DNA of 10,255 nt from Candidatus Coatesbacteria bacterium RBG_13_66_14. GTDB lineage: Bacteria; RBG-13-66-14. Numbering within the stretch: position 1 is the stretch's first letter; every line of letters begins with the position of its first letter. Both the position numbers and the translations under genes were made by a program. The stretch is taken from contig MFAF01000082.1 of the NCBI GenBank assembly GCA_001774505.1, positions 1-10,255 of the forward strand. Direction: 5' to 3'. Below are positions 1,794-8,526 of the stretch, one piece after another. A model generated the notes under the pieces. That model did no database searches and was not told where the DNA came from. It saw nothing but the letters and a program-made list of their open reading frames with translations.

Positions 1794-3377
1794 ATGAAAA
1801 CCATACACTGCGTCCTTCTCGCGCTGACGTTGGTCGTCACAACCTTGGCCGGCGAGTGGCACATCGAGACGGTGGACTCGGAGGGGGATGTAGGCGAGTA
1901 CACCTCCCTGGCGCTGGATGACGCCGGTCTTCCCCATATCTCATATTATGACAAGACCAACTATGACCTTAAATACGCCCGATGGGACGGCGACGAATGG
2001 CAGATAGAAACCGTGGAGTCGGTTAATTGGGTGGGCGAATACACTTCCCTAGCATTAGACTCCTCCGACCACCCCCATATCTCGTATTACAACCACACCG
2101 GCAATAATCTGAAATATGCCCACTGGAACGGTAGCTCTTGGTATAACGAGTTTGTGGACCCGACGGGACGTGGCGCGTACAGCTCCCTGGCGCTGGATTC
2201 CTCCGGCCGACCCCACATCTCGTATCAAGGCGACATTACTCTTAAATATGCTCGCTGGAACGGCAGCTCTTGGCAGATCCAGACCGTGGATTCAGCGGGA
2301 AGCGTAGGCTGGTTTACCTCCCTGGCGCTGGATTCCTCCGGTCATCCCTGCATCTCGTATTACGATTTCTCCAACTCTGCTCTTAAATACGCCCACTGGA
2401 ATGGTAGCACCTGGCAGATCCAGACTGTGGACACGTCGGGAGACGTGGGCCTTTACACCTCACTGGCGTTGGACTCTTTGGATCACCCCCATATATCGTA
2501 CTTCAACGACACCAGTAAAGACCTTAAATACGTCCGCTGGAACGGCGACATCTGGTGTAAAGAGACCGTGGACTCAAACGGAGACGTCGGCATGTACACC
2601 TCTCTGGTGGTAGACTCCTCCGACAATACCCACATCTCGTATTACGATAAAACCAATGGCGCCCTTAAATATGCACACTGGAACGGCAGCTCCTGGCAGA
2701 TATGCACCGTGGATTCGATGGGAGACGTGGGCATGTACACCTCCCTGAAGGTGGATACCTCCGGCAACCCTCACATCTCGTATTACGACGAGAGTAACAC
2801 TTCCCTGAAATACGCCCACTGGGAAGGCGGGCCGGGGGTGGAGGGGGCGGAGGTTTTTGCGAATGTCGGCGACGGGGGCGTGCTGGTAAATTGGGCCATC
2901 ACCGGTGAAATACCTGCGGGCCTGCGCGTCCTGCGGTCGGCGGGGGATGGAGAGCCGCTTAATGTTTCCGGATCGTTGCCGGGAGAGGCTCTGCGCTGGC
3001 TGGATACGAGAGTGGACGCGGGAGTCGAGTATCGCTATTGGCTGGAGACGGTTTACGCGGACGGGACGGTGAGCCGCTTCGGGCCGTCGGAGGCGGTGAC
3101 GTTCCCCGGAGTTTCGGGAGAATTGGCCCTGTCCATCTACCCCAATCCGTCGAGCGGCTCATTCACGGTGGATTACACGCTGCCTAAGGACGGCCGTATA
3201 ACTATATCGCTATACGACCTCTCGGGCCGGCGGGTGGCGACGGTTTTCGACGGGGAGACGACCGCCGGGCGGCACGATATTTCTTGGGAGACCTCGACGC
3301 CCCCGCCGGGTGTGTACCTCGTCCGTCTGGCGACCGATTCCGGGACGCTCACCCGGCGGGTGGTCGTCGCGCGGTAA
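1794..3377 (+). CDS. Secreted seven-bladed beta-propeller protein with T9SS-type C-terminal tail
   Basis: The 527-residue product begins with a Sec signal peptide (residues 1-19, cleavage after TLA). Residues 22-347 are seven tandem repeats, six of 47 residues and the third of 44. Each begins at a Trp and follows W-x-I-x-T-V-D-S-x-G-D-V-G-x-Y-T-S-L-A-L-D, then PHISYYD and LKYAHWNG. Seven units imply a closed seven-bladed propeller. Residues about 350-440 look like a fibronectin III-type domain ([23 protein letters not shown]). Residues 444-527 match the T9SS type A sorting or FlgD-like C-terminal fold: [17 protein letters not shown], then [11 protein letters not shown], then GVYLVRL and a short basic end. 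The protein is therefore probably exported through the outer membrane and attached or released. GAGG five bases before the ATG supports the start. The ligand is unknown. A hairpin terminator follows the stop. Confidence 0.85.
1857..2834 (+). repeat. Seven tandem 141-base coding repeats
   Basis: The propeller blades are encoded by seven tandem units starting at 1857. All are 141 bases except the third, which is 132. Strings such as TACACCTCCCTGGCGCTGGA and TGGAACGGCAGCTC recur nearly unchanged, so the array could gain, lose or homogenise units by recombination. Confidence 0.85.
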
Positions 3378-3665: not shown

Positions 3666-4733
3666 ATGCGTTATCCAATCGTATTCCTCCATCTTGCGTT
3701 TCTCCTGTTCCTGGCGGGCTGCGACGACGGACCGGGGCCGGACGGCGAGGACCCGCTGGAGGTCGTCTGGACGTACCAGACCGAGGGGGCGATCCGCACC
3801 ACGCCGATGCGCATCGGCGGCTACATCTTCTTCGGCTCCGACGACGGGACGGTGTACTGCCTGGACGAGGAGGACGGGAGTCTGGAGTGGGCCTTCCCCA
3901 CCGGGGGCCCGGTCCGCTCCGACGTGGAGAACTTCATCGTCAGTTACGTCTACTTCGGCTCCGATTCCGGGCGTGTCTTCTGCGTGGACACCTGGACCGG
4001 CGTGGCGAGGTGGTTCTACGACGCGGGCGACCCGGTGCGGACGACGCCCTGTTATTCGACCACCGGTCTAGTCTACTTCGCCGACACCGCGGGTAACGTC
4101 CACTGCGTTCAGGCCGGCGACGGGGCGGACGTGTGGACGGCGCAGGTCCCCGCCGGGGTGGAGTCGGACCCCTGGGTGGACGCCGAGCGGGTTTACTTCG
4201 GCTGCGACGACGGCTGCGTGTACGCCCTGGACGCGGCCACGGGCGCGGAAGTCTGGAGCTACGCCACCGGCGGGCCGGTGACCGCCCCGATGCTCAAGCT
4301 CATGGACCGGATTATCGTCGGCTCCGGGGACGGTTTCCTCTACTCGCTCAATCCCGAGGACGGCGCGCTCGTCTGGCGCTACGACGCGGGCTCGCCCATC
4401 CAAGGCGCGGCGTGCCCGAGGTACGGGGCGGACGCGGTTTTCGTCGGCACGGACGACGGCCTCGTGGTGTGCGTGGACCTGGACGGGGCTTTCCTGTCCG
4501 AGTTCGATTCCGGGGCGGCGGTCACCGGCGCGCCCGACGGCTACGGGGCGGTCTACGCCGTCGTCTTCGGCAACCACGACGGGCGGCTGTTCCAGGTGGA
4601 CGACGGGGTCCAGGACTGGCGTTTCGAGGTCGGCGACTCGCCCATCCAGGCGTCCCCCGCGAATTTCGGGGACATGATTTTCGTCGGCGCGGACGACGGC
4701 TGCATGTACCGCCTGGACCCGACGGGGGAATAA
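3666..4733 (+). CDS. PQQ-like eight-bladed beta-propeller lipoprotein
   Basis: The frame is open from a TTG at 3621, but the ATG at 3666 gives a textbook lipoprotein signal (RYPIVFLHLAFLLFLAGC) with lipobox LAGC and lipidated Cys19, so I start there (355 residues). The two residues after Cys are Asp-Asp; in enterobacteria Asp at +2 keeps lipoproteins on the inner membrane, though that rule may not apply here. A short Gly/Pro/Asp linker leads to eight Trp-centred repeats (VVW, LEW, ARW, DVW, EVW, LVW, a degenerate AFL unit, QDW). Most contain 'VYFGSDDGxVYCLD..DG', the PQQ/BamB propeller motif. The seventh blade has lost its Trp. It probably acts as a membrane-anchored scaffold or sensor facing the periplasm; the partner is unknown. 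The ribosome-binding site before 3666 is weak (GGCGGTGG). It resembles the lipoprotein at 26-1162 in repeat type, blade count and acidic linker. Confidence 0.85.
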   Translation: MRYPIVFLHLAFLLFLAGCDDGPGPDGEDPLEVVWTYQTEGAIRTTPMRIGGYIFFGSDDGTVYCLDEEDGSLEWAFPTGGPVRSDVENFIVSYVYFGSDSGRVFCVDTWTGVARWFYDAGDPVRTTPCYSTTGLVYFADTAGNVHCVQAGDGADVWTAQVPAGVESDPWVDAERVYFGCDDGCVYALDAATGAEVWSYATGGPVTAPMLKLMDRIIVGSGDGFLYSLNPEDGALVWRYDAGSPIQGAACPRYGADAVFVGTDDGLVVCVDLDGAFLSEFDSGAAVTGAPDGYGAVYAVVFGNHDGRLFQVDDGVQDWRFEVGDSPIQASPANFGDMIFVGADDGCMYRLDPTGE

Positions 4734-4769
4734 GGCTCAATGTCCTTCGCCTCGGCTTCCAAAATGTAG

Positions 4770-4796
4770 GGCGGGGACTTTAGTCCCCGCCGTTTT
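4770..4796 (+). terminator. Rho-independent terminator after the second lipoprotein
   Basis: GGCGGGGAC (4770-4778) pairs perfectly with GTCCCCGCC (4783-4791) over the loop TTTA, followed by TTTT at 4793-4796. It is a near copy of the terminator at 3404-3432, preceded in both by ATGTAG-like bases. Confidence 0.75.
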
Positions 4797-4810
4797 CACC
4801 CCTCACTCTC

Positions 4811-4836
4811 GGTTGTGATGACGTAGGGCGGCCCCG
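4811..4836 (+). repeat. GGTTGCGATGACGTAGGG-type repeat module, copy 1
   Basis: The module reads GGTTGTGATGACGTAGGG then CGGCCCCG. Copies are at 6241-6266 (reverse strand), 8127-8145, 8351-8376 and, without its first bases, 8497-8514. Here it follows a CCCTCACTCTC leader, as at 8116-8145. Confidence 0.75.
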
Positions 4837-4848
4837 CCCCCCTCCTCA

Positions 4849-4920
4849 ATCCTCCCCCCAGAGGGGGGAGAGGATTCATCGCACCCCTCACCCTAGCCCT
4901 CTCCCCAGAGGGGAGAGGGG
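4849..4920. repeat. Two CCCTC...GAGGG palindromes in tandem
   Basis: The first palindrome is CCTCCCCCC-AGA-GGGGGGAGaGG (about 4851-4873). The second has leader CCCTCACCCTAGCCC from 4885 and a perfect 10-base stem, CCCTCTCCCC (4897-4906) with GGGGAGAGGG (4910-4919), over the loop AGA. No T-run follows, so it is a repeat element, not an obvious terminator. Confidence 0.75.
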
Positions 4921-4925
4921 ATATG

Positions 4926-4971
4926 CGGCTGCCCGCGCCATGCGGGTTGCGAATGCGGGGCGGCCGTTTTT
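4926..4971 (+). terminator. Terminator-like hairpin upstream of the selD promoter
   Basis: CGGCTGCCC (4926-4934) can pair along all nine bases, with one G-U, with GGGCGGCCG (4958-4966), and TTTTT follows at 4967-4971. The 23-base interior can itself fold. It lies only 11 bases before the selD -35 box and could insulate selD from upstream reading. Confidence 0.4.
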
Positions 4972-4982
4972 CCCGGCTCCGG

Positions 4983-5011
4983 TTGACTGCCGGGGCCGGA
5001 TTTCATATTCT
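4983..5011 (+). promoter_or_regulatory. Sigma70-like promoter of selD
   Basis: TTGACT (4983-4988) is followed at exactly 17 bases by TATTCT (5006-5011). The predicted transcript would start around 5018, just before the ribosome-binding site of the ATG at 5034. This supports the upstream start used for selD. Confidence 0.55.
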
Positions 5012-5023
5012 TGGCGGGACCGT

Positions 5024-5036
5024 GAGGAGGTCAATG
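5024..5036 (+). promoter_or_regulatory. Ribosome-binding site deciding the selD start
   Basis: GAGGAGG at 5024-5030 lies three bases before the ATG at 5034-5036. The later candidate start, GTG at 5136, lacks such a site and would remove the active-site loop. The site therefore favours translation from 5034 through the UGA at 5100. Confidence 0.65.
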
Positions 5037-6092
5037 CCCGACGACCGTGATCAGCGCAAAGAGCTCAAGCGGCTGACGGCCAGCGTCCGCTGCTCGGGGT
5101 GAGCGGGTAAGCTGGGCCCCGCGGCCCTGCGGCAGGTGCTGGACGCCCTGCCCCCCGTCACCGACAAGCGGCTGCTCTCGCCCATCCACCACGCCGACGA
5201 CGCCGGCGCGGTGCGGTTGGGCGACGGTCGGGTCCTTTTGGCCACCACGGACTTCTTCACCCCCGTGGTGGACGACCCGGCGGACTACGGCCGCATCGCC
5301 GCCGCCAACGCCCTCTCCGACATCTACGCCATGGGCGCCGAGCCCCTGGGGGCGCTCAACATCGCCTGCTACCCGGACCGGGACTTCCCGCTGGAGTATC
5401 TGATCGAGGTCCTCCGGGGCGGGCAGGAGAAGATGGACGAGGCCGGGGCCCTGCTCCTGGGCGGCCACACGGTCACCGACGTGGAGTTCAAGTACGGCCT
5501 GGCGGTGTTCGCCATCTGCCGCGAGGAGGATCTCTGGCAGAACAAGGGCGCACAGCCGGGCGACTTCATCGCGCTCACGAAGCCCTTGGGCTCCGGGATT
5601 CTGGCCACGGCGCAGAAGGCGGACGACCTCTCCCCCGAAGGCCTGAAAAAACTGGTGGCCGTCGCCTCCCGGCTGAACCGCTACTCGGCGAAAATCATGC
5701 GATCCTTGGAGCCCCGCGCCGTAACCGACGTCACCGGGTTCGGCCTTGTGGGGCACGCCCTCGAGGTGGCCCGCAACTCCCAAGTCCGGCTGGAAATCGC
5801 CACGGACGCCCTGCCCCTCATCTCCCCCGAGGTTCTGGCCGCCATGGACGAGCGGCTCAAGCCCGGCGGGCTCTTCAAGAACATCGCGGCCTACGCCGAC
5901 GAGGTGACGGTCCGGGAGGGGGTGCCCGAGCGGCTGGCGCACCTGGCCCACGACCCGCAGACCTCGGGCGGGCTGCTCTTTTTCGACGCCGCGCCCAAGT
6001 GGCCGGACTACGAACGGGCCTTCGCCGCCGCCGGCGAGACCCTCTGGCGCATCGGCGAGGTCACCCGCGGCCGGGGGATGTACCTGAAGTGA
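5034..6092 (+). CDS. selD: Selenophosphate synthase SelD, a selenocysteine-containing form (UGA at 5100-5102)
   Basis: SelD makes selenophosphate from selenide and ATP in the cytoplasm, the selenium donor for selenocysteine-tRNA. Reading from the ATG at 5034 gives 352 residues (E. coli SelD has 347) if the in-frame TGA at 5100-5102 is read as selenocysteine. That places Sec23 in RCSG-U-AGKLGP, exactly where E. coli has catalytic Cys17, with the essential Lys three residues later (Lys26; E. coli Lys20). Other family marks keep a constant offset of five from E. coli: Asp56 in ADDA, Asp73 in TTDFF, Asn92 and Asp96 in NALSDIYAMG, and Asp232 in DVTGFGLVGH. DPQTSGGLL at residue 307 closes the C-terminal domain. 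It has its own promoter and a strong ribosome-binding site, and a bidirectional-looking terminator lies downstream. The alternative, a truncated gene starting at the GTG 5136, would lack the catalytic loop and is unlikely. selA, selB and selC must lie outside the window. Confidence 0.93.
5100..5130 (+). promoter_or_regulatory. UGA-Sec codon with candidate bacterial SECIS hairpin
   Basis: Eight bases after the UGA, GC-T-GGGCC (5111-5118) can pair with GGCCC-T-GC (5123-5130), leaving a T-T mismatch and the loop CCGC. The loop starts 16 bases after the UGA, within the usual bacterial SECIS distance, and holds one G, although as its third base and not among the first two. Competing folds exist in this GC-rich stretch. 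Confidence 0.45.
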
Positions 6093-6202
6093 TTGTTCGA
6101 GGCCTCGATAATCCACCGCCGGAGTGGAGAGGGTGACGGGCGGATGCGTAAACACACCCCTACGAGTTGCAATTGTTGGCGGTCAACGAGGGCCGATGTA
6201 GA

Positions 6203-6222
6203 GGCCGACCTTTAGGTCGGCC
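6203..6222. repeat. TTTA-loop hairpin without T-tract
   Basis: GGCCGACC (6203-6210) and GGTCGGCC (6215-6222) form a perfect 8-base stem over TTTA. It has the same shape as the terminators at 4770 and 8143 with a different stem, and no T-run follows on either strand. Confidence 0.7.
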
Positions 6223-6277
6223 CGCGAAGGACTCGTCCTACGGGGCCGCCCTACATCATCGCAACCGGGGGTGAGGA
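6215..6277 (-). repeat. GGTTGCGATGA-type module with compound hairpin, reverse-strand copy
   Basis: On the minus strand, CCTCACCCCC and GGTTGCGATGATGTAGGG (from 6266) lead into GGCGGCCC (6250-6243), an inner hairpin AGGAC-GA-GTCCT (6239-6228) and a closing arm GGGCCGAC (6223-6216; one mismatch to the outer arm). The same arrangement in the opposite orientation occurs at 8351-8401. Confidence 0.7.
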
Positions 6278-6293
6278 TTTTTCCATTATAACG

Positions 6294-6319
6294 AAAGGCG
6301 GCTCCGGGGCCGCCTTTTT
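6294..6319. terminator. Bidirectional terminator between convergent selD and the 16-residue-repeat gene
   Basis: GGCGGC (6297-6302) pairs with GCCGCC (6309-6314) over TCCGGG, flanked by AAA on the left and TTTTT on the right (6315-6319). The plus strand thus ends in a T-run for selD, about 200 bases after its stop. The minus strand reads out into a shorter TTT for the gene ending at 6341. Confidence 0.7.
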
Positions 6320-6340
6320 ATATGGGAGAGCTAGGGGCGC

Positions 6341-6937: not shown

Positions 6938-7159
6938 ATGGACTGCGACCGCCGCGAGATCAACCTCGGGCACTGCAACTGCACCTACTCCTGCGACAAG
7001 CACGGCCGCTGCTGCGAGTGCCTGCACTACCACCGGGAGCGGATGGAGCTGCCGGCGTGCTACTTCGACGCCGCGTCCGAGCGGACCTGGGACCGCAGCA
7101 TTTCGTACTTCGTCGCGCGCCTGTTCCCGCGTTCCAAGCAGGGTAAGCCCCCGGCCTGA
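6938..7159 (+). CDS. Small cysteine-rich DUF6485-family-like protein
   Basis: The 73-residue product has a GGGGAG ribosome-binding site five bases before its ATG. It carries eight cysteines: Cys3, 13, 15, 19, 25, 26, 28 and 41, in the pattern C-N-C-x3-C-x5-C-C-x-C, followed by [14 protein letters not shown] and a [10 protein letters not shown] segment. From memory this matches the small DUF6485 family, found in anaerobes and uncultured phyla, which shares the CNCTY, CCEC, LPACYF and DRSI elements and this length. The cysteine set could bind zinc or an iron-sulfur cluster in the cytoplasm (no signal peptide). Function is unknown. It has its own promoter, divergent from the 16-residue-repeat gene. 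A longer overlapping frame from 6876 is a composition artefact. Confidence 0.82.
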
Positions 7160-8126: not shown

Positions 8127-8171
8127 GGTTGCGATGACGTAGGGGCGGACCTTTAGGTCCGCCCTCTTTTT
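8127..8171 (+). terminator. GGTTGCGATGACG module ending in a terminator hairpin
   Basis: GGTTGCGATGACGTAGGGG (8127-8145) runs into GGGCGGACC (8143-8151) paired with GGTCCGCCC (8156-8164) over TTTA, followed by TCTTTTT (8165-8171). It is the first good plus-strand terminator after the zinc-ribbon gene, about 100 bases from its stop. Confidence 0.65.
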
Positions 8172-8350: not shown

Positions 8351-8401
8351 GGTTGCGATGACGTAGGGCGGCCCCGTGGGATGAATCCCCTGCGGGCCGC
8401 C
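8351..8401 (+). repeat. GGTTGCGATGA-type module with compound hairpin, forward copy
   Basis: GGTTGCGATGACGTAGGG (8351-8368) leads into the outer stem GGCGGCCC (8367-8374)/GGGCCGCC (8394-8401) with an inner hairpin GGGA-TGAA-TCCC (8378-8389). The inner stem differs in paired bases from the copy at 6215-6277. Confidence 0.7.
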
Positions 8402-8493: not shown

Positions 8494-8526
8494 CAATTGC
8501 GATGACGTAGGGGGTGTCCACACCCG
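8494..8526 (+). repeat. Truncated TTGCGATGACGTAGGG module with a short hairpin
   Basis: AATTGCGATGACGTAGGG is followed by GGGTGT (8512-8517) paired with ACACCC (8520-8525). The leader is conserved but the hairpin is unrelated in sequence to those of the other copies. Confidence 0.6.

Follow-up and report, generated by a model that had tools for sequence, protein, structure and literature searches.

A selD Gene with an In-Frame UGA Codon in Candidatus Coatesbacteria Probably Encodes a Selenocysteine-Containing Selenophosphate Synthetase

Introduction

The reading frame of a gene for selenophosphate synthetase (SelD) in a genome of the Candidatus Coatesbacteria family contains a TGA triplet at the position of its catalytic residue, which raises the question of whether this triplet is a stop or a codon for selenocysteine (Sec). 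SelD is described as present in almost all bacterial lineages (PMC5029168). According to another report, 19% of the SelD genes in a reference set carry Sec, in every case at the catalytic position, while the others carry Cys, and bacterial SECIS elements of Sec-SelD genes were recovered with RNAz (PMC4561486). The gene described here lies in a stretch of 10,255 nucleotides (the window), which makes up the whole of contig C82. The draft bin to which this contig belongs (G000 in the following) comprises 2.06 Mb in 152 contigs and is 75.6% complete. Among named relatives, the closest one found is L078, a Candidatus Coatesbacteria bin (DAOVLG010000310.1), with 81% protein identity. Judged from sequence comparisons, the gene is, with a probability of about 96%, an intact selD whose product is a selenophosphate synthetase containing Sec, with UGA 5100–5102 read as Sec.

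The selD Gene and Its Catalytic Site

The features of the locus are as follows.

4983..5011, + strand, sigma-70-type promoter-like site, TTGACT-17-TATTCT (found by a scan as a consensus match; the same pair occurs in three same-genus genomes)
5024..5030, + strand, GAGGAGG, a Shine-Dalgarno-like sequence ahead of the ATG
5034..6092, + strand, selD, 352 residues with proposed Sec23 and stop TGA 6090–6092 (translation, TIGR00476, AIRS/AIRS_C, PDB SelD chains)
5100..5102, + strand, in-frame TGA, proposed selenocysteine codon 23 (aligned codons in 110 loci; TGA in 6/6 family copies)
5109..5111, + strand, codon of Lys26, aligned to chain residue 20 of 3u0o_A (alignment, sequence)
5114..5148, + strand, candidate bacterial SECIS hairpin (low synonymous divergence; hairpin kept in 6/6; fold no better than shuffles)
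5136..6092, + strand, shortened 318-aa ORF from GTG, as given by a standard ORF caller (ORF listing)

The frame, the homology of its product, and the position of the UGA are direct observations. When UGA is read through in translation, selD starts with ATG 5034–5036, passes TGA 5100–5102 as codon 23, and continues to the next in-frame stop, TGA 6090–6092, yielding a product of 352 residues that includes the UGA-coded residue 23. This protein scores 338.3 bits against the TIGR00476 model, far above its curated cut-off of 125, whereas its score against a separate SelD model, NF002098, is narrowly under the cut-off (285.8 bits vs 299). It comprises the domains AIRS and AIRS_C and matches the PDB SelD chains 2yye and 3u0o. 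The match to TIGR00476 begins already at residue 13, and the similarity of the protein continues on both sides of TGA 5100–5102. In a phmmer alignment to 3u0o_A, residue 23 corresponds to chain residue 17 and Lys26 to chain residue 20. We take 3u0o to be the SelD of E. coli, with Cys17 and Lys20 as its catalytic residues, the lysine being essential. UGA codon 23 and Lys26 thus show the arrangement expected of a SelD, in which the catalytic position is Cys or Sec and a Lys follows three residues on. The original prediction had placed the TGA at the position of E. coli Cys17, with the Lys three residues later, and the alignment to 3u0o_A bears this out.

The upstream signals named in that prediction are all present in the sequence as well, that is, ATG 5034 with GAGGAGG ahead of it, a 17-spaced promoter, and an in-frame run through the TGA into the body of SelD. 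The promoter-like boxes, TTGACT (4983–4988) and TATTCT (5006–5011), are separated by a spacer of 17 bases. In three genomes of the same genus, selD is likewise preceded by such a pair with the same spacing, the second box being TATTCT, TATTCT, and TATCCT, respectively. A scan of the region 4700–6330 gave two promoter-like sites, compared to a mean of 0.2 in shuffled sequences, with the second site on the minus strand. The description of the gene as hidden from ORF calling is correct for the catalytic N terminus, which is missed, but not for the body of the protein, which is still listed as a 318-aa ORF from GTG 5136.

About 200 bases past selD, an inverted repeat followed by TTTTT (6294–6322) resembles a terminator, although it was absent from the results of a terminator scan of 4700–6330. 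At the level of the whole 10,255-nucleotide window, an Rfam scan gave no matches at gathering scores, and a tRNA search found no tRNAs.

Codon 23 in Related selD Genes

The codon aligned to position 23 of the window protein was compared in 110 SelD loci, of which 30 came from a whole-genome search and 80 were kept from 206 relatives found by a genome-contig search. TGA occupies this position in 66 loci, and the two Cys codons, TGC and TGT, in 22 each; no further codon occurs. Two of these loci, L021 and L078, are apparently the same 3,036-base record, giving a distinct TGA count of 65/109. Since the loci were chosen in order of their similarity to a query of the Sec type, the proportion of TGA among them does not reflect its frequency in nature, and the key point of the tally is the restriction of this position to Sec or Cys codons. 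In homologues of a selenoprotein gene, the position of the in-frame UGA is expected to be occupied by UGA or by a Cys codon, and in all 110/110 loci the aligned codon was TGA, TGC, or TGT. The alignment with Sec- or Cys-type SelDs proposed for this gene therefore gave the predicted outcome.

The conservation of the UGA within the family of the window, comprising its Candidatus Coatesbacteria kin, is also directly observed. SelD is found in six of the seven family genomes, and every copy has one internal TGA; the seventh genome, in which no SelD was found (G005), is 70% complete. The terminal stops of the six selD genes are TGA, TAA, TAA, TAA, and TAG, with the sixth gene running off its contig. 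Since the terminal stops vary and the internal TGA is constant, UGA is kept specifically at codon 23. In addition, the selD of the window itself ends in UGA, so this triplet still functions as a stop there.

A second, intact selD with a Cys codon would argue against this reading, and none was found in G000 or in the sister genome G001. The sole other match in G000 has a score of 22 bits, and G001, listed as 100% complete, has a single SelD match, which contains TGA. The absence of a second selD rests partly on G001, since the assembly of G000 is 75.6% complete.

Selenocysteine Machinery in the Genome

The genes selA and selB, as well as most of a tRNA-Sec, are observed directly in the source genome, in which a search for selA, selB, and selC had been proposed. 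SelB is encoded on contig C91 (295.6 bits, cut-off 242.25), and SelA on contig C6 (377.8 bits, cut-off 267.9). The tRNA-Sec is partial and below its cut-off. In G000 the tRNA-Sec model matched at 11 places, all of them under the cut-off of 47 bits; the partial tRNA-Sec itself reaches 38.4 bits. For eight of these matches the loci were fetched, and a tRNA search assigned seven of the eight to Arg, Ser, Val, or Tyr tRNAs. The same search placed a further match, C116:5156–5232, on an Arg tRNA in locus L002, so that the check covered all but the matches on contigs C66 and C16.

The remaining one of the eight, C91:5005–5073, directly adjoins selB and has a readable UCA anticodon, with the 5′ part of the tRNA located inside a run of N. 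This run (about positions 1500–1697 of locus L006, taken from C91) spans the 3′ end of selB as well as the 5′ part of tRNA-Sec. Over its 80 readable bases, the tRNA is identical to the 3′ end of the 98-base tRNA-Sec stretch in G001, where the match scores 75.3 bits. The tRNA search found no tRNA at C91 because the tRNA-Sec is interrupted by N, and for the same reason both the tRNA finder and the Rfam cut-off miss selC in G000. Automated surveys could consequently score this genome as one without selC. The presence of selA, selB, and an N-interrupted UCA tRNA-Sec adjoining selB, together with the lack of a second SelD in the searches described above, supports the original claim that the organism decodes UGA as Sec.

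The same machinery is found in most members of the family. SelB is above the cut-off in six of the seven genomes (the exception, G002, is 96% complete), and a strong tRNA-Sec match is present in five of the seven (G001, G002, G004, G005, and G006). In a set of 61 genomes, tRNA-Sec was found in 31/37 genomes with SelD and in 1/24 without it (Fisher p 4e-10); when only the TGA-type SelD is counted, the corresponding values are 30/36 and 2/25 (p 3e-9). SelD was called here at E < 1e-40 and tRNA-Sec at ≥59 bits, a line drawn post hoc, as no match scored between 52.7 and 59.3 bits. These p values are rough, since the genomes are related and the tRNA-Sec search was more strictly filtered. The SelD-containing genomes with no strong tRNA-Sec match are G000, G003, G012, G038, G044, and G054.

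Alternative Explanations of the TGA

The single base that separates TGA from both TGC and TGT, as well as the fragmented state of the draft bin, might suggest that selD is a pseudogene or that a Cys codon was misread as TGA in sequencing. The same TGA, however, recurs in five further genomes of the family and is more common than any other codon among the 110 loci, while the 329 codons that follow it stay open and the SelD protein of the window is 93–94% identical in two sister genomes. With the TGA kept in kin and the downstream frame open, this explanation was rejected, and its probability is negligible. A genome-wide reassignment of UGA to an amino acid other than Sec, such as Trp or Gly, was rejected as well and is just as improbable. 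While it agrees with a frame that is open once UGA is read as a residue, the selD of the window terminates in UGA where the sister genes have TAA, the genome contains selA, selB, and a UCA tRNA-Sec, and codon 23 is aligned with Cys codons elsewhere, not with those of Trp or Gly.

Marginally less improbable, yet still very unlikely, is translation from an internal start at GTG 5136, with TGA as an ordinary upstream stop. Such a start corresponds to the 318-aa ORF produced by a mechanical ORF caller, and one PDB SelD chain, 2zau_A, aligned only from residue 52. A protein initiated at this GTG would nevertheless lose the catalytic residues. The SelD family model matches already from residue 13, and the motif around TGA is in frame in 6/6 family copies. 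Additionally, both the promoter-like and the Shine-Dalgarno-like sites suit the upstream ATG. This internal start was thus rejected on the basis of the N-terminal homology, the conserved motif, and the upstream signals, leaving the reading of UGA 5100–5102 as Sec as the preferred one.

Candidate SECIS Element

If UGA 5100–5102 is read as Sec, a SECIS element should be present next to it. Synonymous differences were counted at same-amino-acid sites among the six family sequences, with pairs among the three closest left out. The divergence in codons 25–41 is 10/194 (5%), the lowest among 336 windows of 17 codons, compared to 15/194 (8%) in codons 24–40, 58/170 (34%) in codons 2–22, and 815/2878 (28%) in the whole ORF. 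Two further stretches of low divergence are found in codons 86–102 (11%) and 324–340 (9%, few sites). The synonymous constraint is directly observed, and low synonymous change right after UGA is what should be expected from an RNA element (SECIS) at this place.

The candidate hairpin (5114–5148) has its upper stem in 5122–5141 and the loop CGG in 5130–5132. This loop is located 27 nt past the UGA, and a bacterial SECIS hairpin is expected 16–37 nt past it. The candidate is within the limits published for bacterial SECIS elements, as given in PMC13188914. The upper stem is kept in 6/6 family sequences, with a single change from U-A to U-G. The fit of the hairpin is by itself weak evidence, since 44/59 control codons of the GC-rich selD fit the same SECIS model (6/59 with a stem of at least 8 bp) and the fold is no more stable than those of shuffled sequences. 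Four single-sequence folds around TGA did not surpass their shuffled counterparts (z −0.27 to 1.44). In a comparison of 65 TGA and 44 Cys loci, from which L078 was dropped as a duplicate, the hairpins that follow the codon were slightly more stable in the Sec loci than in the Cys loci (median z −0.74 vs −0.30, one-sided p 0.014); hairpin stability in the six sequences of the family was unremarkable (z −0.45 to 0.81). Thus, a SECIS element is likely to be present after the UGA, with its exact fold uncertain.

Proposed Path of Selenocysteine into SelD

In the proposed mechanism, SelA would convert Ser-tRNA-Sec and selenophosphate into Sec-tRNA, and SelB would deliver Sec on this tRNA, with its UCA anticodon, to a ribosome that reads UGA 5100–5102 as selenocysteine. 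The RNA element just past the UGA, presumably folded as a SECIS, would recruit SelB. The resulting SelD is predicted to make selenophosphate from selenide and ATP by means of Sec23 and Lys26, so that the enzyme would supply the very pathway on which its own residue 23 depends.

Other Selenoproteins in the Family

The expectation that other selenoproteins of this genome are probably mis-annotated too is so far unsupported, with none found among the few families tested in the seven family genomes. These searches covered matched domains in a handful of families. No internal stops were found within the matched stretches of the FlpD (18), AhpC/TSA (36), and NiFe-hydrogenase (24, in 5/7 genomes) domain matches of the seven genomes. 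The molybdopterin-oxidoreductase family, which includes the formate dehydrogenase FdhA, was found in 0/7 family genomes, with the control found in 11/14 genomes. In turn, tRNA selenouridine synthase was found in 0/7 family genomes, with its control found in 7/14 and above the cut-off in one. GrdB was found in 0/7, a result that carries no information, as its control had no match in any genome. A scan for paired in-frame UGAs in the contigs carrying FlpD and hydrogenase genes was swamped by wrong-frame matches when unfiltered. Once a codon-position filter was applied, over 28 loci, no candidate other than SelD was recognised as a gene read in its coding frame, and several of the other candidates were antisense to selB or hydrogenase genes.

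FdhA is reported in 67/75 Sec-using bacteria, and SelD is described as the single selenoprotein of several species, where this is explained by their selenouridine trait (PMC1794560). Compared to the pattern outlined in that source, a lineage with Sec-SelD and with neither the FdhA family nor selenouridine synthase is somewhat unusual. We can speculate that the Coatesbacteria family may keep the whole Sec apparatus mainly, or only, for SelD itself, although this is unlikely; a selenoprotein in some unsearched family is more likely than a SelD-only system, and further selenoproteins in this family are possible. If it exists, a Sec system that serves SelD alone, with no selenouridine, would represent either a self-serving loop or a pointer to an unknown use of selenophosphate.

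Comparison with Known SelD Proteins

Sec-containing SelD has long been described, and the gene of the window adds one more such member. It shares with the Sec-containing bacterial SelDs of TIGR00476 the domain architecture, the place of the UGA, and the Lys three residues on, as well as the synonymous constraint past the UGA and the presence of selA, selB, and tRNA-Sec in the genome. There is no essential difference; Gly25 is found here where 3u0o_A has Cys19, in a position that varies among the 110 loci (Ala, Ser, Gly, Cys). The Cys-containing SelDs have the same fold and reaction, with a Cys codon at position 23 in 44/110 loci, but carry Cys in place of Sec and hence do not need UGA decoding. 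Full-length SelD matches without a stop have frames of 744–748 codons, consistent with the N-terminal oxidoreductase–SelD fusions described in PMC4561486, whereas the SelD of the window has no such extension.

A search of open-licence PMC literature found nothing that pairs Coatesbacteria with selenocysteine or selenium, and the Sec trait of this lineage may therefore be undescribed. The present analysis lends support to a functional Sec trait in an uncultured lineage that has received little study. It also serves as a warning for annotation, as a standard gene call would place the start of selD at GTG 5136, so that the catalytic residue is lost. Beyond annotation, the understanding of selenocysteine decoding is unchanged.

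Other Features of the Window

The sequence GATGACGTAGGG is present five times in the window (four exact copies and one with a mismatch), compared to 0.06 expected by shuffling. The copies are found at 4817–4828, 6249–6260 (− strand), 8133–8144, 8357–8368, and 8501–8512. They are intergenic and lie alongside short GC-rich inverted repeats, forming a dispersed intergenic repeat. An AT-richer stretch (1353–1764) includes two overlapping frames, one with 75 codons between ATG 1353 and a TAG and the other with 93 codons beginning at ATG 1483, which look like either a frameshift-broken gene for a secreted protein or two short ORFs. The region that follows (1794–3377) encodes a 527-aa protein with repeated HISYYD...LKYA.W.G units and a terminal Por_Secre_tail sorting domain (PF18962, 44.7 bits). 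Past selD, a 73-aa Cys-rich protein (6938–7159) matches DUF6485 (PF20095, 27.5 bits, cut-off 24).
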